From the IMG/VR virus record IMGVR_UViG_3300017987_000202, positions 1-36,581 of that record: a DNA stretch of 36,581 nt. One strand, written 5' to 3'. Below are positions 2,762-20,314 of this stretch, in pieces. The position numbers were made by a program, and so were the translations under genes. This DNA comes from a virus. The stretch's first letter is position 1. Each line of letters opens with the position of its first letter. A model generated the notes under the pieces. That model was not told the origin of the DNA, did no database searches, and saw only the letters and a list, made by a program, of their open reading frames with translations.

Positions 2762-3316
2762 ATGGCGGGAAAAATTAAAAAGGGATTTACAATGATACCG
2801 GTAAAGCGCCTCATTCCTGCAGAATGGAATTATAAGCTGGATGATGAAGAACTGGCCGAGAAGTTAAAAAATAATATTGAAATGCATGGTCAGCTGGAAA
2901 ACATTATGGTGCGGCAGCTGGATTCAGGTGGATATGAAATTGTGAACGGCAATCACAGATTGCCAGCTTTCAGAGATTTGAAAATAAAGGAAGTGATGTG
3001 TTTTAACTTCGGAAAGATTTCCGATGCACAGGCAAAACGGATTGCGGTCGAGACAAATGAGACGCGATTTCCTACGGACTACATAAGACTAGCCGAATTA
3101 ATCAAGGGCATTTCGGATGAAACACCTATGGAGGAGCTGGAAAGAACGATGCCTTGGACAATGGAGGAGCTTGAGGACTTCAGAAAGTTTATTGATCTTG
3201 AATGGCCAGTGGACCAGAAAAACGAAACGACGGAAACGGTTGAGCTTGAGGAGGGGGAAATTATTTGTCCACATTGCGGAGAGGTTGTAAATATAGATGA
3301 TGAAATGAACGAATAG
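2762..3316 (+). CDS. ParB/sulfiredoxin-fold protein, copy 2, with C-terminal Cys knuckle
   Basis: This is a clear paralogue of the preceding gene. IPVKRLIPAEWNYK, MHGQLENIMVRQL, YEIVNGNHRLP (GNHR at 63-66), AKRIAVETNETRF and TPMEELERTMPW all match the first copy in the same order. It too ends in an acidic linker plus CPHCG (C169, C172). It has 184 residues and starts three bases after the upstream stop. The GAGGAGAAGGAG run that closes copy 1 serves as ribosome binding site. Tandem duplication with divergence throughout suggests either a heterodimer or two specialised partners. A zinc site could form across a dimer, each chain giving two cysteines; that is inference. Function is unknown beyond the fold. 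Confidence 0.8.
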   Translation: MAGKIKKGFTMIPVKRLIPAEWNYKLDDEELAEKLKNNIEMHGQLENIMVRQLDSGGYEIVNGNHRLPAFRDLKIKEVMCFNFGKISDAQAKRIAVETNETRFPTDYIRLAELIKGISDETPMEELERTMPWTMEELEDFRKFIDLEWPVDQKNETTETVELEEGEIICPHCGEVVNIDDEMNE

Positions 3317-3336: not shown

Positions 3337-4599
3337 ATGATTCAAACAGCACAGACATTCAAATCGGACGGCCTTTTTCTGGCAATGCCTTATACGGAAT
3401 TGAGCAAAGGTGTTGTACTTCCAGATCTAAAATCTGCACGTGGTTATGTTGTTCTTTCCGGCGTAGGTAAATTTTTATATCGCAGTAACAACAGGGACAA
3501 AGTATTACGAGCTGCATTGACTTATGCAAAACGGACAGGCGTAGATACTCAGATAGGAGAGATTATCGGTATAAGTGCTGGCAGACCTGTTTGCAAGCGT
3601 GCGGTTGTTGTGGCTGTTGATAAGGTAAAGAATCCATTAAAGGTAAATGAATTCTTACGACGTGTGGACAGTGCTGCTAAAAAGGCCAAGTCCATTACGG
3701 ATCCAATGGTAGTGAATACGGTCAACAGGGCACTGGACGATTTGGTCCGAAAACCGTGGAATAGAATGTCGGATGCTGAAGTAACGGCAGCTGTTAATTC
3801 GGCAAACAGAACGCTGGATAAATTATCGAAAAAATGGCCGAAGGCTACTCTGGATAAATTCGAAAAGAATTTTACGGTAACGAGCACGTCAGTTGTGAGA
3901 GATACACGGAGGGTACAGCGTACTGTCCACAATCTGGATATTGGCATTAATCTCTTACAATCGGATCAGGTTGCTGTAGAACACATGGTCAAGAATCAAA
4001 GCCTGTTTGCGCGAAATAGGTATAAAGATATTTCTACTGCAGCCAGCAAAAAAGCTCGGCGGATTGTTTCAGAAGGATTAGCCGCAGGGCTTGGACCGGA
4101 CGATATTGCTAAAGATTTAAGAAAAGGCATTGGTCCGATGTACAGTGCGGTTCAGAAAAATTATTACAGGACTTTGGCTCATGTATTTGTAGGACGATCT
4201 CGAGCATGGGCGCAGGGCACGAGTTATAAGGACGCCGGTATAACTCGGTATCGAGTGTCTGCAGTTCTGGACGAAGTTACTACGGATACATGTAGAGCAA
4301 TGAACGGTAGGATATTACCTGTAAGGGAGTCACTGGCTATTCAGAGAAATGCAATGGAACTTGAAAAGCCCGAAGACATTAAATATGAGCAGCCATTTAT
4401 GAGTGAAAGAAAAGGCGAGATAGGAATTTTTGATGCGGATGGCAATTGGGATTCGTTGTTTCAGGTGCGTGAGTCTGGACTTGGCACTCAGGATGTTGGA
4501 AGATACAGATCTATGGTTTCAAATGCAGACTTGATTGATAAAGGTATTGGATTCCCTCCATATCATTTTCATTGTAGGACGATAACCTTGCCAGAGTAA
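3337..4599 (+). CDS. MuF/SPP1 gp7-like minor head protein
   Basis: The last 200 of 420 residues match the Mu gpF (SPP1 gp7) head morphogenesis domain: helices around 220-300, then LDEVTTDTCRAMNGR near 312-325 and the terminal FPPYHFHCRTI at 406-416, the usual 'PPyH..CR' end. These proteins bind the portal and sit inside the head. The first 200 residues are longer than in compact MuF proteins and include an unrecognised segment (GYVVLSGVGKFLYRSNNRD, 36-54). The start ATG 3337 follows ATGGAACG, a moderate ribosome binding site. The gene opens the head module, and the portal and terminase would normally lie just upstream, where the modification cassette now sits. Confidence 0.85.
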   Translation: MIQTAQTFKSDGLFLAMPYTELSKGVVLPDLKSARGYVVLSGVGKFLYRSNNRDKVLRAALTYAKRTGVDTQIGEIIGISAGRPVCKRAVVVAVDKVKNPLKVNEFLRRVDSAAKKAKSITDPMVVNTVNRALDDLVRKPWNRMSDAEVTAAVNSANRTLDKLSKKWPKATLDKFEKNFTVTSTSVVRDTRRVQRTVHNLDIGINLLQSDQVAVEHMVKNQSLFARNRYKDISTAASKKARRIVSEGLAAGLGPDDIAKDLRKGIGPMYSAVQKNYYRTLAHVFVGRSRAWAQGTSYKDAGITRYRVSAVLDEVTTDTCRAMNGRILPVRESLAIQRNAMELEKPEDIKYEQPFMSERKGEIGIFDADGNWDSLFQVRESGLGTQDVGRYRSMVSNADLIDKGIGFPPYHFHCRTITLPE

Positions 4600-4608
4600 G
4601 GAGAAGAC

Positions 4609-5043
4609 ATGAACAAGAACAAGGTGAAGTACAGCAAACGCGGAGACATGCTGGTAAATTTTATTGACGCTTACGAAAAAAAAGGCACCATGGATAGGGT
4701 ATTCTGGACAATACATAATACAATTTTGGAATCATTTAGGAGTGAGGTTAAAAAGAATTTGATAGTTACTCCGGAACAAGTTAAAAGGTCTCATATTATG
4801 CCGGATACTGTTGTGGATTCAGGGACTGAAGCAGAGATTGGAAGGAGATTTGATATTTTGGCAAATTGGTATATGATTATGAGGAAGGATCAGAGATTGT
4901 CAGTGCCGGAAACATTGGATAATCTTCCGTTGGCACTAGAAGCAGAACTAGATGGAAATAGAAATTGGGAACCACCGCCAAGAAAAGAAGGGCTACGAGC
5001 TGGCGGTGAAACATTAAAAGAGGTAGCCAACCGACGGAGGTAA
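4609..5043 (+). CDS. Hypothetical protein in the head module
   Basis: This 144-residue protein is not recognised. It begins with a basic stretch (NKNKVKYSKRGD), contains a probably helical middle with FDILANWYMIMRKDQR near 84-99, and ends in a proline- and arginine-rich tail (EPPPRKEG, then EVANRRR). No signal peptide or membrane segment is seen. An AAGGAGAA ribosome binding site precedes the ATG, and the gene lies nine bases after the MuF gene and three before the acidic protein, so it is part of the head operon. A structural or assembly role is inferred from position only. Confidence 0.6.
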   Translation: MNKNKVKYSKRGDMLVNFIDAYEKKGTMDRVFWTIHNTILESFRSEVKKNLIVTPEQVKRSHIMPDTVVDSGTEAEIGRRFDILANWYMIMRKDQRLSVPETLDNLPLALEAELDGNRNWEPPPRKEGLRAGGETLKEVANRRR

Positions 5044-5046
5044 AAG

Positions 5047-5634
5047 ATGAAAGTTTTTTCAAGGACCATGAAGCTGTCAAGATTCAGAGATGTGGTAATT
5101 CCTGCACTCAGGAAATGGGCAGGTGAAGATGCTGACAAGCTTGAGTTTGTAAAGGATCAGGTCGAGGACGTTGAGCGCAAGACCAACGATACGGCTGACA
5201 ATGAGGATCCCGAAGTGAGCGTGGTTCTGCCGGATGAGTTCGTTCAGGACGAAGATTCTCATAATGCATTCGAAGGTGCATTGAAAAATGCTACGGATGC
5301 AATGCAGAAGATGGTCGAGGATGTTACCAAGCTGGTCAATGAATTTTCAGAAGGCGTGAACAAAAAGCTGGACGCATTGATGATGAAGATGGAAGTCGAA
5401 ATTTCCGAAGAGGACGACGCCGGTGAGCCTTCGGATGAAAGTGACTCAGACGATTCGGATGAGGCCAATGACGAAAAGGACAAAGATGCTCCCAGCAATG
5501 ACGAAGACAAAAAAGACGACGAGCCGGACGAAGATGATGGCGAGCCGGATGATGTCGATAAGGCACTGGATGGTGTTTATGATCTTTCGGCAGACGTGAA
5601 AACGAAAAAGGCGGCTGGTAAGTCAATAGCCTAG
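5047..5634 (+). CDS. Acidic scaffold-like protein with shared C-terminal tag
   Basis: This 195-residue protein starts with a basic helix (MKVFSRTMKLSRFRD). A helical middle follows, with heptad-like hydrophobics (NATDAMQKMVEDVTKLV, then VNKKLDALMMKMEVE). A very acidic low-complexity linker covers about residues 120-170, and the chain ends with the tag DGVYDLSADVKTKKAAG (175-191). The same tag ends the 653-residue protein encoded at 6144. Location upstream of the protease and capsid genes, coiled-coil character and acidity resemble capsid scaffolds, which are temporary internal proteins often cleaved or expelled. The ribosome binding site GGAGG is strong. Scaffold is inference; a minor internal head protein is the alternative. 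Confidence 0.6.
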   Translation: MKVFSRTMKLSRFRDVVIPALRKWAGEDADKLEFVKDQVEDVERKTNDTADNEDPEVSVVLPDEFVQDEDSHNAFEGALKNATDAMQKMVEDVTKLVNEFSEGVNKKLDALMMKMEVEISEEDDAGEPSDESDSDDSDEANDEKDKDAPSNDEDKKDDEPDEDDGEPDDVDKALDGVYDLSADVKTKKAAGKSIA

Positions 5635-5638
5635 ACGC

Positions 5639-6139
5639 ATGAGCGTAGAACTTTACAAATCGGCTCGGGAATACCTATCCCGAAATAATATAAGCGTTGG
5701 CGTTTTTGAGTGTCGGTTTGCCAAGGAAACGGCAAGAGAAGAAGAACGATACATCAAAGGCGTAGTGCTTGAACCTACCATTGGAAAGGACGTTCTTAAT
5801 CCGGACACGGATAATGATGTGTACACGGAGGGGGACGTAAGATTTGCAGCTCATTGGTTTGCGGAACATGGATGGCGAATGAAAATTCAGCATCAGATTG
5901 CTTCGGAAAGAGACATCGTTATTTTGGAAAACACGATAACGGATGTGGAGTACAAGCTGAATGGCGAGGTTGTTCACAAGGGATCATGGCTTATGGCAAA
6001 TCGCGTTTACAATGAGGAAATCTGGCAGATGATAAAGGACGGTCGAATCACTGGATTTTCAATAGGCGGATTAGGAAGTCGTGAGCCGATTACTCCGGCA
6101 CAGATCAGACAACTAAGGGCTAAAAGCAGATGGGGTTAA
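5639..6139 (+). CDS. XkdF-type prohead protease
   Basis: The protein matches the XkdF family of putative prohead serine proteases. YIKGVVLEPTI starts the first strand at 39, TEGDVRFAAHWFAEHG follows at 63-78, MKIQHQ places the likely catalytic histidine at 85, KGSWLMANRVYNEEIW lies at 114-129, and GRITGFSIGG gives the likely serine at 141. It would mature the head by cutting scaffold and coat proteins. At 166 residues it stops soon after the serine loop. The short segment that usually follows in this family (a 'VSLVD.PAN' strand) is instead found at the start of the next gene, which begins four bases later. Its own ribosome binding site is weak, so coupling to the acidic gene is likely. Confidence 0.8.
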   Translation: MSVELYKSAREYLSRNNISVGVFECRFAKETAREEERYIKGVVLEPTIGKDVLNPDTDNDVYTEGDVRFAAHWFAEHGWRMKIQHQIASERDIVILENTITDVEYKLNGEVVHKGSWLMANRVYNEEIWQMIKDGRITGFSIGGLGSREPITPAQIRQLRAKSRWG

Positions 6140-6143
6140 AAAA

Positions 6144-8105
6144 ATGCTGAGAGAATTTTTAATAAAAAGCGAACCTGTCGAAGATGAAGAAATTTTTCAT
6201 CTTACTTATATGAAGCCCGAAGAAGTCAGCGTTGTGGACGCAGCTGCCAATAAAAGAAAGTTGCTTGTCATCAAATCGCAGGAAAAAGTTTTCAAGGCCG
6301 AGGTGCCGGATACTGGGGCGACATCAGAAGAAAAGAGAGATGCACAGAAACAGCGTTCGGCTACTTTCGACATTGAAGCACTTGAAGGCAAGGGCGAGAA
6401 TTTGACGTATCCAAAGGGCGATCCGACGGACCTTGGATTATATGGTGATCCGGTCAATCTCAAATATCCGTTGGCTTATGCAGGTGAATCAGATCCTGAT
6501 TTGGCAAGAGCCAATAATGCAAGAGCACGATTCAAACAGGCAGCGGATACGTATGAACAGACTAGCAGTAAAAGGGTTATTCATACACGGATAGTCAGGG
6601 CACAGCTTTCTGCTGGTGCAAGCCCTTCGTATAATCCGGACGATGAGCTGGATAAGCTTTTGGCAAGCGATATAAAAGACAAGCTGACCAAGGAAGTTGA
6701 TGGCGATGCGGACGAGCTGATGGGCGTTGGTAAGCCACAGATAGGGAGAGCACCTGACGGTGATCCGGGAACGTGGGATATTCAGTCTCTGCTATTTTCT
6801 AAAGATGAGTTTTCACTTAGCGAAGCCAAGACATGGCTCACTGAGCACGACTCTTATAAGAACTATGGCATGGAAGAGACGGATGAATACTACCGGTTCA
6901 GACAGTACGACCCGGAACATTTTTCTACTTGCAGAATGGTTGATATGACTACTGGAATAAAGGCTGTGTACTGCAAGATTAAACAGAAAGAAAAATCTTC
7001 AAAACAGGATGCCAAGGTCAGTGAGACTTCATCTGGTACGAGAGCAGAACAGGTTAGCGACGCAAGAGCCGGTCAGCGCGAAAGATCAGGCATTTACGAG
7101 ATAGAAGTTCTGGAAGGCAAAGGTGAAGACATTCATCTGTTGTTGCAACAGGGCGAGAATGATGATGAGTACGCGGATCCGGTTAACAGATTATTCCGGC
7201 TGTCATGGTATGATGGCAATGCGGATCCGAGTCAGGTAGCCAGCGCCGTTCAGGAATTTCAATCTTCGGTCGGACTTTACGAACAGAAAACCAGCAAGAC
7301 GGTCATCATGGGAAGGATTATTCGGGCAGCATTTCAGGCGATGTTATATCCGAGATTTGAGTCGGATCATCCCTTGTTCGAATACATACCGGAAGACCTG
7401 AAGGCAATGGTTGTTCATGAAAAAGCCGAGAACAAGGATGAAGACAAACAGGACCAGCCGGAAGGCGATGATGCGGGCGCAAGCGATATGGATACAGGAC
7501 TCAAGTCGGTCCTGAGTGCTGCGGATAGCGGAATAAAAAGTCTTTTATCACTGGCCGAAGGCATTCGGTCAGGCGAGCAGACGGATGCCAGTGCAGCGAA
7601 ACAGAAACTTCTGGATGTAGCCAATGCATTGAATAGTGCAGGAGGCAAGGCTAAGAATGCAGATGCAGATAATGACGAGCCGAATGAGTCGGCGAGTCAG
7701 GATAAGCCGAAAGAAAAAAATTCTGGCCTTACATCGCAGATAGCGAGTTTGAATTTAGACATAGCAGCAGCCAGATTGGGAAAAAGGAAACCTGTCAACA
7801 ATGATAAGCCGAAGCCTGTTGACAAAGAGGGCAGTGGCAATGGTGGCTCAACATCAGTGAAGGATTCAGGTAAAGGTACTTCGGCCAAGCCTGTAAATAA
7901 GAATACTTCGAAAGAGAGCGAGCTGCAGCGTGAGGTAGGCGAGCTGAGAAAACAAGTCATCAGACTCAAGAAACAGGTTCTTGCTCCGGCGGGTATAACG
8001 GATTACCTGTCGAATAAAAACACAGTCGAAGATGATAACGCATGGGATGGCGAGTATGATCTTTCGGCGAGTGTGAAAAAGCAAAAAGAAGCGGGAACTC
8101 TGTAG
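6144..8105 (+). CDS. Multidomain capsid-assembly protein with duplicated DUF6582-like domain
   Basis: The 653 residues form a mosaic. Residues 27-44 (EEVSVVDAAANKRKLLVIK) look like the C-terminal strand of XkdF proteases. Residues 71-158 and 312-402 are two copies of one domain: 'RSATFDIEALEGKGE' against 'RSGIYEIEVLEGKGE', then YGDPVNLKYPLAY against YADPVNRLFRLSW, then RIVRA against RIIRA. This resembles DUF6582. Between them, 209-278 holds a phage domain with AKTWLTEH and YRFRQYDPEHF. After a charged region comes a coiled coil (590-612) and the terminal tag WDGEYDLSASVKKQKEAG (634-651), shared with the acidic protein at 5047. Placement between protease and major capsid gene argues for a scaffold or internal head role. 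Confidence 0.65.
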   Translation: MLREFLIKSEPVEDEEIFHLTYMKPEEVSVVDAAANKRKLLVIKSQEKVFKAEVPDTGATSEEKRDAQKQRSATFDIEALEGKGENLTYPKGDPTDLGLYGDPVNLKYPLAYAGESDPDLARANNARARFKQAADTYEQTSSKRVIHTRIVRAQLSAGASPSYNPDDELDKLLASDIKDKLTKEVDGDADELMGVGKPQIGRAPDGDPGTWDIQSLLFSKDEFSLSEAKTWLTEHDSYKNYGMEETDEYYRFRQYDPEHFSTCRMVDMTTGIKAVYCKIKQKEKSSKQDAKVSETSSGTRAEQVSDARAGQRERSGIYEIEVLEGKGEDIHLLLQQGENDDEYADPVNRLFRLSWYDGNADPSQVASAVQEFQSSVGLYEQKTSKTVIMGRIIRAAFQAMLYPRFESDHPLFEYIPEDLKAMVVHEKAENKDEDKQDQPEGDDAGASDMDTGLKSVLSAADSGIKSLLSLAEGIRSGEQTDASAAKQKLLDVANALNSAGGKAKNADADNDEPNESASQDKPKEKNSGLTSQIASLNLDIAAARLGKRKPVNNDKPKPVDKEGSGNGGSTSVKDSGKGTSAKPVNKNTSKESELQREVGELRKQVIRLKKQVLAPAGITDYLSNKNTVEDDNAWDGEYDLSASVKKQKEAGTL

Positions 8106-8159: not shown

Positions 8160-9089
8160 ATGAAAGACAATAGAACACTGCTTCAGAAAGCAGATATGTC
8201 GCTGACTGACATAGCAACAGCTGGAGAGCTTTTGCCTATTCAGGCGAAAAAGTTTTTTCAGATTGCAATTGCGTCGGCAAAGCTTCTGGAAGAAATAATG
8301 ACTACAACAATTGGTTCGAAGAAACAGATCCTTCCGAAGATCGTTTTCTCTGGACCTATTCTCAGGCCGGGTGTAAGCGGACAGGCACTGCCCGAAGGTG
8401 ACAGGTCCAAGCCCACGACATCGAAGGTGGAGTGGGATACAAAGCTGTTCAAGGCAGAAGTCAGACTTCAGGACGAAGTGGTCGAAGACAACATCGAGCG
8501 CAACACGTTCACGACTACCATAAGAAACATGATGGCAACGAGAATCGGCTTGGATGTCGAGCACGTTTGCCTGAATGGAGACACTGGATCGGCGGATGCT
8601 CTGCTGGCATCTCTGAACGGACTCAGGAAACAGGCAAGTACGAATGTGGTCAACGCCGGTGTTACTTCTCTGGACAAGGATGTCTTGATTGCATCAATCA
8701 AGGCAATGCCTCTTGAGTTCAGGGACAAAAGGAACATGGCATTTTTCACGTCACCGGATGCGGTCGAAGATTATCATCATACCTTAACAGGTAGGGCGAC
8801 GATCCTCGGCGATGCAGCTCTGGAGAAAGGCATAACGCCGTATTACTCCGGCATTCCGGTGTACATCACGAGCACGTTCCCGGAGAATCTCGGTGGAGCA
8901 AACAATGAGACAGAAATGCTTCTCATGAATCCGAAAAACGCACAGCTGGCGTGGTGGAGAACTGTGAAGTTCGAGCTGGACAGAGATGTAAGCGCGGGTG
9001 AGATCATTATCGTGGCCACTATGCGGTTTGACATCAAGTTTGAGCATGAGCCTGCGGTTGTGAAAACGGACGAGATTACGGTTGCGTAG
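8160..9089 (+). CDS. Major capsid protein (HK97 fold)
   Basis: This 309-residue protein has the outline of an HK97-fold coat protein: an N-terminal arm with ELLPIQAKKFF, a spine-helix region IATAGELLPIQAKK to LLEEIM, VEWDTKLFKAEVRLQDEVVEDN near 93-114, a central A-domain with FFTSPDAVEDY, and a late SGIPVYITSTFP. The C-terminal strand is FDIKFEHEPAVV. It follows the protease and has a strong GGAGG site spaced eight bases from ATG, fitting the most abundant virion protein. No large N-terminal delta domain is seen, which agrees with separate scaffold genes. The leader carries a short AACCAG repeat. The call rests on layout and motifs; no alignment was run. Confidence 0.85.
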   Translation: MKDNRTLLQKADMSLTDIATAGELLPIQAKKFFQIAIASAKLLEEIMTTTIGSKKQILPKIVFSGPILRPGVSGQALPEGDRSKPTTSKVEWDTKLFKAEVRLQDEVVEDNIERNTFTTTIRNMMATRIGLDVEHVCLNGDTGSADALLASLNGLRKQASTNVVNAGVTSLDKDVLIASIKAMPLEFRDKRNMAFFTSPDAVEDYHHTLTGRATILGDAALEKGITPYYSGIPVYITSTFPENLGGANNETEMLLMNPKNAQLAWWRTVKFELDRDVSAGEIIIVATMRFDIKFEHEPAVVKTDEITVA

Positions 9090-18112: not shown

Positions 18113-20314
18113 ATGGAACTCCTATCTGCAAAAGTAGTAATAAGAGAAGAAGCCCCTAAGATCAGATCTGCTCCGAGTTTACCGACGGCGGTACTTGGAA
18201 TTGTAGGTGTAACGGAACGTGGTCCACTGGATCAGACACTTCTGGTTACATCATGGGGAGAGTACGTATCTCAGTACGGTAATTACATTACGGACAGCGA
18301 TGTTCCGTTGGCAGTGCATTCTTTCTTCATTAATGATGGAAAGTATCTCTACATGAGAAGGATATGTCACTTTACGGACGTGGACAGTCCATCATCGTTT
18401 ACCGCGGTCAAGGCATCGAGAATGCTTCAGACAGATGGTGGCGGTGCAACAGCCGGGGCGGTTGTCTCAAGCAACTCGGCACCGTTCGAGCTGGCTGATG
18501 GAGATACGCTGGACATCACAACGGACTTGGGCGGACCTACTACGGCAACATTTAACGGCACGGCTCCAAGCGTAACGGATACGACTTCTTATCCAGTGGG
18601 ACCCGGAACGGGTGTTCTACAGGTCAAGGTAGATCAGGGCAGTACTCAGAGCATAACGTTTGCTGGAACTGAGACTACGGCGGATGACATTGCGGCAACA
18701 ATCAATGCACAGATTGAAGGCGCGAGAGCAATAGTCGTAGCTGGTCCACAGGTGAAGATCGAATCTGACAAAAAAGGTACTGGCGGATATGTCGAAATCG
18801 TGGCTAATCCTTCGGCGAATCCCTTGCTTACTTTTTCGACTTCGGAAGTGCAGGGCGGAGGAAATGTTGCGGACATCGAAGCGGTAACAGGGGCCGAAGT
18901 CAAGAGCGTGGTTGAAGGTGCGGTATCAGGAGTTGAGGTATCCGGCGATACTTACGTAACCATAGCCCGCAGCGATACCGGGTCAACCAAGTACGTGACG
19001 GTTGCGGCCTCGAGCACGGCAGACGATGAGATGGGATTCGACAATCTGCAGCACGACGGCACGGACGATTCTCCGCAAGATACTTTGAATGTCGAAGGCA
19101 AGACGGAAGGGACTTATGCTCACAACGTAAAGACGAAGGTTGAAGACGCCAGCAATGGTGACAGCGACTATTTCAATTTTTACGTTCTGGAAGATGACAT
19201 AATCACGGAACGGTTTCCCGATGTGACAATGGAAGATGAAGCGGATCCGCGATATGTCGAGACGATAGTCAACGATGAAGATAACGGTTCAATGCTGATT
19301 CAGGTTGAGGATCAGGAACTGGCGGGAACAAGGCGACCGGCAAATCAGACATCGAGCGCATTGGCTGGCGGAGATGATGGACTGACCAGCTTGGCCGATG
19401 TGGATTACATAGGCTCTGAAGCTGGAAAGACCGGCCTGTATGCTTTCGATATTATATCGGACATAACCTTGATAGCGGTTCCGGGCATAGCTACTTCAGG
19501 CGTGCAGAATGCAATGATTACATATTGCGATACACACAGAAGCGGAATGATGCACGCATGTCTGGATCCACCGGCGAGCCAGACTGCATTGCAGATGAAG
19601 ACCTATGTTGAGACAACGGCATCGCTGAAGAACCTTTCAGAGCATGGATTCATATGGTGGCCGAGAATCAAGGTGGTCAATCCTAATGAGACCATTTACG
19701 GCAATGAGAAATATGTCGTAATTCCACCGGCGGCATCATTGGCCGGTGTCATGGCTCGGAATGATTCACGAGGGCCCGGCGGAATTGCTGAAGCTCCAGC
19801 GGGAATTGAGTACGGATTGATCAAGGACTGCGTAGGTCTGGAGACGGACGAAGCTCTGGATCCGAAAAAGCGGGACTTGGTTTATCCGGCGTTGATTAAT
19901 CCGATAACCAAGATTGGAAGTTCGCCTTATCATTCAGACGGCAGCAGAACACTGAAGGAGAACGGCAACTGGCCGAGCATCGGACAGAGACGGCTGGTTA
20001 CTTACATCGAGAGGGTAGCGAGAATTGCTGTACTGTATGCCAAGCACAGGAATATCACGAGAAGACTCAAGAACAGTGTTGAAGGAACGATGGAACAGTT
20101 CCTTCTTGAGCTGACCAGCTTGGGAGTTTTTGCGTCAACAAAGCCAAGAGAGGCATTCTGGATTGACGTATCAGACGAGTTGAATCCACCGAGCGTGGCA
20201 TTTGCAAGACAGGTCAGAGTAAGAATTGGTCTGGCGACTGCTTATCCGGGTGAGTTCATCATCATATCATTCTCACAGGATTTAAGGGCACTTGAGCAGG
20301 CGCTTCTTTTCTAA
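18113..20314 (+). CDS. Contractile tail sheath protein
   Basis: The N-terminus (REEAPKIRSAPSLPTAVLGI, VGVTERGPLD, VTSWGEYVSQYG) and the C-terminus (WPSIGQRRLVTYIERVARI, RRLKNSVEGTMEQFL, then RVRIGLATAYPGEFIII) are typical of tail sheaths. The inner part SGVQNAMITYCDTHRSGM and AGVMARNDSRGPG match the sheath core. With 733 residues it is much longer than simple sheaths of about 400-500. The extra length is mainly a beta-rich insert at about residues 105-330 (ADGDTLDITTDLGG, TTADDIAATINAQIEGA, VKIESDKKGTGG), which probably faces outward. AATACGGAGGTATAAT includes the ribosome binding site. Confidence 0.92.
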   Translation: MELLSAKVVIREEAPKIRSAPSLPTAVLGIVGVTERGPLDQTLLVTSWGEYVSQYGNYITDSDVPLAVHSFFINDGKYLYMRRICHFTDVDSPSSFTAVKASRMLQTDGGGATAGAVVSSNSAPFELADGDTLDITTDLGGPTTATFNGTAPSVTDTTSYPVGPGTGVLQVKVDQGSTQSITFAGTETTADDIAATINAQIEGARAIVVAGPQVKIESDKKGTGGYVEIVANPSANPLLTFSTSEVQGGGNVADIEAVTGAEVKSVVEGAVSGVEVSGDTYVTIARSDTGSTKYVTVAASSTADDEMGFDNLQHDGTDDSPQDTLNVEGKTEGTYAHNVKTKVEDASNGDSDYFNFYVLEDDIITERFPDVTMEDEADPRYVETIVNDEDNGSMLIQVEDQELAGTRRPANQTSSALAGGDDGLTSLADVDYIGSEAGKTGLYAFDIISDITLIAVPGIATSGVQNAMITYCDTHRSGMMHACLDPPASQTALQMKTYVETTASLKNLSEHGFIWWPRIKVVNPNETIYGNEKYVVIPPAASLAGVMARNDSRGPGGIAEAPAGIEYGLIKDCVGLETDEALDPKKRDLVYPALINPITKIGSSPYHSDGSRTLKENGNWPSIGQRRLVTYIERVARIAVLYAKHRNITRRLKNSVEGTMEQFLLELTSLGVFASTKPREAFWIDVSDELNPPSVAFARQVRVRIGLATAYPGEFIIISFSQDLRALEQALLF

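Follow-up and report, generated by a model that had tools for sequence, protein, structure and literature searches.

A shared C-terminal peptide in the head module

Why do two genes that flank the protease gene of a phage head module encode proteins ending in the same peptide, when the remainders of the two proteins look unrelated? The question is raised by the 36,581-nucleotide stretch of viral DNA analyzed here (hereafter the window), a 36.6-kb virus record to which contigs of 86.6 and 9.9 kb are nearly identical. Its head-module genes lie in the order of a MuF-like protein, a 144-residue protein (starting at 4609), an acidic 195-residue protein, an XkdF-type protease, a 653-residue protein and an XkdG-type capsid protein (Table 1). 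The features that characterize an XkdF/XkdG-type head module are all present, i.e., a Peptidase_S78_2 protease, an HK97-fold XkdG-like capsid and, between them, a scaffold with the VSxVDxxAN motif. The AlphaFold2 model of the capsid protein matches HK97-fold capsids and encapsulins in Foldseek, with E-values down to 1.8e-14; a comparison with solved structures by sequence gave no match. The window also encodes a contractile tail, with a tail sheath at 18113 (phrog_15814, 2.4e-172; phrog_17610, 1.7e-48). The genes at 214-1754 encode a protein that matches a queuine tRNA-ribosyltransferase family (phrog_887, 1.2e-17) and, after it, QueC (Pfam, 3.5e-65), and, judging by these matches, their probable role is 7-deazaguanine modification of the phage DNA.

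Table 1. Features of the head module, with positions in the window
Feature	Position	Strand	Support
MuF-like minor head protein, upstream neighbour of the module, untagged	3337..4599	+	Pfam Phage_Mu_F 3.3e-7; phrog_13868 1.6e-45
Second tagged protein, 195 aa, acidic (61 D/E, 26 K/R)	5047..5634	+	AlphaFold2 single sequence, pLDDT 73
Candidate protease site VDK/A (VDK/ALDG) before tag copy 1, second protein	5554-5565	+	
Tag copy 1, ALDGVYDLSADVKTKKAAG then KSIA, 4 residues from the stop of the 195-aa protein	5563..5619	+	
XkdF-type head maturation protease (Peptidase_S78_2), 166 aa, untagged	5639..6139	+	Pfam 1.6e-20; phrog_3017 1.4e-27
Scaffold, 653 aa: N-terminal VSxVDxxAN motif, duplicated domain, coiled-coil/low-complexity region, C-terminal tag	6144..8105	+	
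Scaffold N-terminal motif EEVSVVDAAANKRKLLVIKS, residues 26-45, common to relatives' scaffold ORFs and protease-scaffold fusions	6219..6278	+	
Tag copy 2, AWDGEYDLSASVKKQKEAG then TL, 2 residues from the stop of the 653-aa scaffold	8040..8096	+	
Major capsid protein, XkdG-like (phrog_1623), HK97 fold; presumed docking partner	8160..9089	+	PHROG 1.9e-75; AlphaFold2 pLDDT 82; Foldseek
Candidate capsid pro-peptide cleavage site LLQK/AD (K10-A11)	8187..8192	+	

The sequence-only reading of the window had placed one terminal peptide on both the 195-residue and the 653-residue proteins, and both copies are indeed there, with the consensus AxDGxYDLSAxVKxxKxAG and at the distances from the stops given in Table 1. 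The exact 14-mer that it had noted in the DNA, TATGATCTTTCGGC, is likewise found at 5578 and 8055, with no third copy in the window. Given that 16 14-mers are repeated in the window, it is the peptide, not the 14-mer, that is informative. When the C-terminal 30-mers of the 40 window genes were compared, the two tags scored 66, second among the 780 pairs, and none of 20,000 shuffles reached that score (maximum 45). The top pair (score 72) belongs to two adjoining ParB-like paralogues directly upstream of the MuF gene (2168-2755 and 2762-3313), which have similar C-termini and match the same ParB families over most of their length. The bodies of the two tagged proteins scored 63 against 49 ± 7 for shuffled sequences, and 11 of 200 shuffles reached 63. 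The description of two otherwise unrelated head-module proteins thus holds for the bodies, which have no clear similarity, and is to be refined in that the 653-residue protein is not an arbitrary head protein, as described below.

The 653-residue protein as scaffold

Judged on sequence grounds, the 653-residue protein is the scaffold of the XkdF-protease/XkdG-capsid head module, given its place between protease and capsid, its N-terminal motif and its match to the scaffold ORFs of relatives (phmmer 7e-42; 39% identity over 188 residues to the scaffold of L148). Searches with the two tagged window proteins themselves returned only near-identical contigs, and tblastn with the 653-residue protein found no match among named phages. 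The relatives were collected via the capsid and grouped into 98 clusters at 90% capsid identity. In named phages of Rhodobacter, Stenotrophomonas, Vibrio, Rhizobium and Aeromonas, as well as in relatives from metagenomes, the gene that separates protease and capsid encodes a scaffold-like, coiled-coil and low-complexity protein that starts with [FVI]SxVxxxAN. In fused protease-scaffold forms, this motif precedes the protease; it is possibly another assembly contact.

The window scaffold contains two diverged copies of one domain of approximately 130 residues (6330-6716 and 7059-7442; local score 175), which is present as a single copy in relatives such as L148. Residues 195-309 of the scaffold (window 6726-7070, approximately 115 residues) are the counterpart of a domain at the N-terminal end of relatives' protease ORF (3.7e-31), and the window protease is without that domain. 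The domain seems to have moved from protease to scaffold.

Conservation of the tail among relatives

Conservation of the tag in relatives had been set beforehand as the test on which its significance hung. Scaffolds end in a tail of the form [WF]x(1-4)D[LMI][NSATGC] in 37 of the 98 clusters, and 27 of these 37, among them the window, have a tail of this kind also on a second protein, whose gene lies immediately upstream of that for the protease. Four of the remaining 10 clusters lack a second tagged protein, and six could not be evaluated at contig ends. The scaffold and second-protein tails are, respectively, PEWPMDMGAGE and VDWPMDMGS in L063 and TDWSGDLNEATR and TDWSGDLNTRKE in L145, all four running up to the stop; VVWPSDMAAKYRK, at the stop, and TVWPADMAKAYKAK in L042; PKPWPKDLAAE and PKPWPKDIAGD in L044; and KSAWGSTDLASELEAE and KPAWGSGDLNEEFKAE in L153. 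Both proteins retain the motif in phages with only 35-49% capsid identity to the window. Elsewhere in the loci, a W-motif near the C-terminus was found in 13 of 1464 ORFs, and a near-terminal motif in a protease ORF occurred in a single case (MSDVIWPTDMT in L063). Eight phage contigs of 78-114 kb yielded no convincing third tagged protein, only the two that flank the protease.

Within a phage, the two tails resemble each other. Among 24 divergent loci (capsid identity up to approximately 75%), the tags of a phage's own scaffold and second protein had a mean BLOSUM score of 34.0, compared to 19.7 ± 1.7 when partners were permuted, and none of 20,000 permutations reached the observed value. A scaffold tag matched its own partner better than the second protein of the nearest relative at 14 loci, worse at 9 and equally at 1, so that shared ancestry explains part of the within-phage matching. 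Together, the shuffles, the conservation among relatives and the within-phage permutation rule out chance as the source of the shared tail. A degradation tag is disfavoured, as in second proteins up to 49 residues separate the motif from the stop. We conclude that the peptide is almost certainly a conserved, functional tail on two head-module proteins.

The second tagged protein of the window belongs to no known family in Pfam or PHROGs. AlphaFold2, run on the single sequence, predicted helix over residues 10-121 and an unstructured acidic linker over residues 122-169, followed by the tag; the second proteins of relatives, judged from their sequences, also look helical in their N-terminal parts, with linkers that are acidic or charged. 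They average 15% identity among themselves, and the Asp of the tag is the sole invariant column; given that they were picked by the motif, conserved tag columns are expected and are not independent evidence, and it is the scarcity of other conservation that is informative. For L107, the reading frame of the second protein is doubtful except for its last 60 residues or so. A 2_5_RNA_ligase2 domain was found in 2 of the 27 second proteins (best 1.1e-17), and those of L063 and L159 were assigned as 2H phosphoesterases by both HxT motifs, which are readable in the sequence. In L159 (2468-4111) and L063 (846-2117), a tag-like peptide also occurs internally, behind the 2H domain (WPEDMAKAA and WPDDIAETV, respectively). 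The second proteins of L161, L138, L020, L137 and L165 have a further conserved element of approximately WGxD(P) after the tag near the C-terminus (e.g., DDWGKDPDF at the stop), which was not seen in scaffolds.

The second protein is absent in a clade associated with Myxococcales, which indicates that it is not always needed. L097, L098, L105 and L106 (Myxococcales and related MAGs) have a tagged scaffold and no second tagged protein, and their XkdF protease is fused behind an N-terminal domain resembling a Dam-type DNA methyltransferase.

Candidate protease sites

Residues K10 and A11 of the capsid protein are invariant in 17 aligned capsids, and KA stands at this place in 76 of the 98 clusters. 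Relative to shuffled sequences, the motif [VIL]xK[AS] is about three times as frequent in the scaffolds (341 vs. 112) and in the second proteins (67 vs. 21) and is not enriched in downstream ORFs (208 vs. 198). Protease ORFs (141 vs. 53) and the body of the capsid protein (93 vs. 46) also contain more of it than their shuffled counterparts, which makes shuffling a lenient control and leaves the cleavage motif as no more than a prediction. In the 22 residues that precede the tag, [KR][ASG] occurs in 22 of 27 second proteins (14.8 ± 2.3 in shuffles) and in 44 of 58 scaffolds (33.8 ± 3.4), values matched in 4 of 2000 shuffles in each case; in the window scaffold, no K[ASG] occurs in the 22 residues before the tag. 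These patterns suggest that cleavage by the XkdF protease detaches the proteins from their tails, and we give even chances to such a release at [VIL]xK/[AS] sites, where the slash marks the predicted cut.

Docking partner of the tail

The sequence-only reading had proposed a docking tag behind a flexible linker, with the shell or the protease as its target. Conservation on both proteins and the acidic-linker anatomy are consistent with the docking part of this proposal; as for the partner, the shell, the protease and other proteins are candidates, of which we favor the capsid. The tail probably docks to the shell. With somewhat reserved confidence, we further propose that the tag is a C-terminal shell-docking tail of the scaffold and of a co-packaged protein, and that it is cut off at maturation. 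Both proteins would then hang by their tails from the inner face of the procapsid shell, where the scaffold would shape the shell and the second protein would be packaged alongside, as a minor component of the core or as cargo. Cleavage at [VIL]xK/[AS] by the XkdF protease would take place within the N-terminus of the capsid protein, at sites along the scaffold and, in many cases, directly ahead of the tag, so that the tails would let go as the head matures.

The tag could instead dock to the XkdF protease, as a substrate-recruitment or protease-incorporation tail on its two main substrates, which we regard as unlikely. In the window as in its relatives, the protease gene sits between the two tagged genes, the predicted cleavage motifs are frequent in both tagged proteins, and in partial Mantel tests the tag distance tracked the protease distance at least as well as the capsid distance (partial correlations of 0.34 and 0.26, which do not separate the partners). 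However, a conserved tail is still present at the end of scaffolds that are fused to the protease (e.g., PIWDGLL, YLAGIL and SWPEDMARSK, each at the stop), and a protein already tied to the protease needs no protease tag, which makes the shell the better partner. Such fusions, ending in [WF]xG[LIV][LIV] or WPEDMARSK, are found in Bacillus PBP180, Dulem virus 37, L050, L054, L069, L085, L159 and others, where we assume that the [WF]xG[LIV][LIV] and WxxD[LMI] tails are one element. Moreover, the capsid has the predicted cleavage motif yet no tag, and a scaffold needs a contact with the shell, which in herpesviruses is the C-terminal tail (PMC12474303).

Improbable, too, and more so, is a tag that binds another common partner, e.g., the portal or the scaffold itself, and thereby organizes a two-protein core rather than anchoring it to the shell. 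The second proteins are coiled-coil and acidic, as scaffolds are, and the capsid-targeting sequence of T4 interacts with the prohead core (PMC7411985). The scaffold, however, is itself tagged, so that a scaffold receptor would have to recognize its own tail, and the tail is kept in phages that lack a second tagged protein.

That the tails are a functionless relic of recent duplication or gene conversion is very hard to credit and largely refuted by conservation: the window, with the same codon at 9 of 11 identical residues (expected 4.2) and the exact 14-mer, would fit a relic, but over the 27 loci the same codon is used at 60 of 125 shared tag residues (expected 58.1 ± 5.2), and the motif persists in both proteins at the capsid divergence given above. 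Codon sharing at expectation indicates that the tail match is kept at the protein level, and the codon test rules out recent DNA copying as a general cause, with the window as a possible exception. The window alone has an excess of shared codons, which may reflect a recent conversion or copy in its lineage; such an event would account for the 14-mer.

Possible cargo loading and significance

More tentatively than the shell-docking tail itself, the tail may be read as a general cargo-loading signal of this phage group, which would load the scaffold and a fast-evolving second protein with possible effector domains for delivery with the DNA. We hold this reading to be less likely than not; its grounds are the 2H phosphoesterases on the second proteins of L063 and L159 and the proposal that 2H domains fused to MuF or portal domains are head-packaged effectors (PMC5512222). 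If it is true, these phages would possess a packaging tag of natural origin, placed at the C-terminus and transferable to other proteins.

How a scaffold grips the shell, and how the protease and minor core proteins are recruited, is known for few protease-bearing tailed-phage systems. A tail that co-varies over at least 27 divergent phages, often behind candidate protease sites, offers a direct experimental handle in one peptide. If the docking model holds, the peptide would serve as a simple C-terminal packaging tag, the second protein would count as a new component of the head core or of the cargo, and a cleavage specificity would be predicted for the XkdF family of proteases.

Comparison with known systems

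In the literature searched, which covered few subscription journals, we found no publication on XkdF scaffolds or on this shared tail. The modules of PBSX type are alike in protease family, capsid family and gene order. The Bacillus XkdF/XkdG forms differ in having the protease and scaffold fused and in their [WF]xG[LIV][LIV] tails, and no second tagged protein was found there.

The idea of an encapsulin-like cargo tag, also raised in the sequence-only reading, stands as an analogy only; the scaffold tails of herpesviruses and the capsid-targeting sequences of T4 come closest. The cargo-loading peptide of encapsulins is short, C-terminal, carried by different proteins and bound to the inner face of an HK97-fold shell (PMC7355545), but encapsulins lack a scaffold, a protease and a step of release. 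In the window, the shell is not an encapsulin but a phage capsid (phrog_1623) encoded beside protease and scaffold genes, with tail genes in the record.

In lambda, C and Nu3 share a C-terminus, Nu3 being read from inside C. There, as here, protease and scaffold belong to one head-assembly system; what is shared in lambda, however, is a whole domain from one gene, whereas here it is a short tail on two separate genes. Contacts of lambda Nu3 with C and with E have been described (PMC3224144).

In T4, the capsid-targeting sequence on IPI, IPII, IPIII and Alt carries these internal proteins into the prohead, where it is cleaved by the prohead protease (PMC9026906, PMC7411985). Both systems place a short peptide on otherwise diverged head proteins. 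The T4 sequence, however, is N-terminal, acts through the core and is described on internal proteins, while the tag described here is C-terminal in the window and its relatives and is carried by the scaffold as well.

In herpesviruses, UL26 and UL26.5 end in the same C-terminal sequence, through which they bind the major capsid protein; the maturation protease cuts it loose at the M site, which lies near the C-terminus (PMC12474303). The likeness lies in two proteins with one common C-terminus and in a conserved C-terminal scaffold tail, found here in 37 clusters. The herpesvirus proteins, however, are nested products of one reading frame, whereas those described here come from separate genes without other clear similarity, and the tail here is approximately 20 residues long and varies in sequence. 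As far as tested, the tail is homologous to none of the herpesvirus tail, the T4 capsid-targeting sequence and the encapsulin peptide. Its distinctive feature is that a short C-terminal tail is common to a scaffold and a second protein encoded by separate genes.
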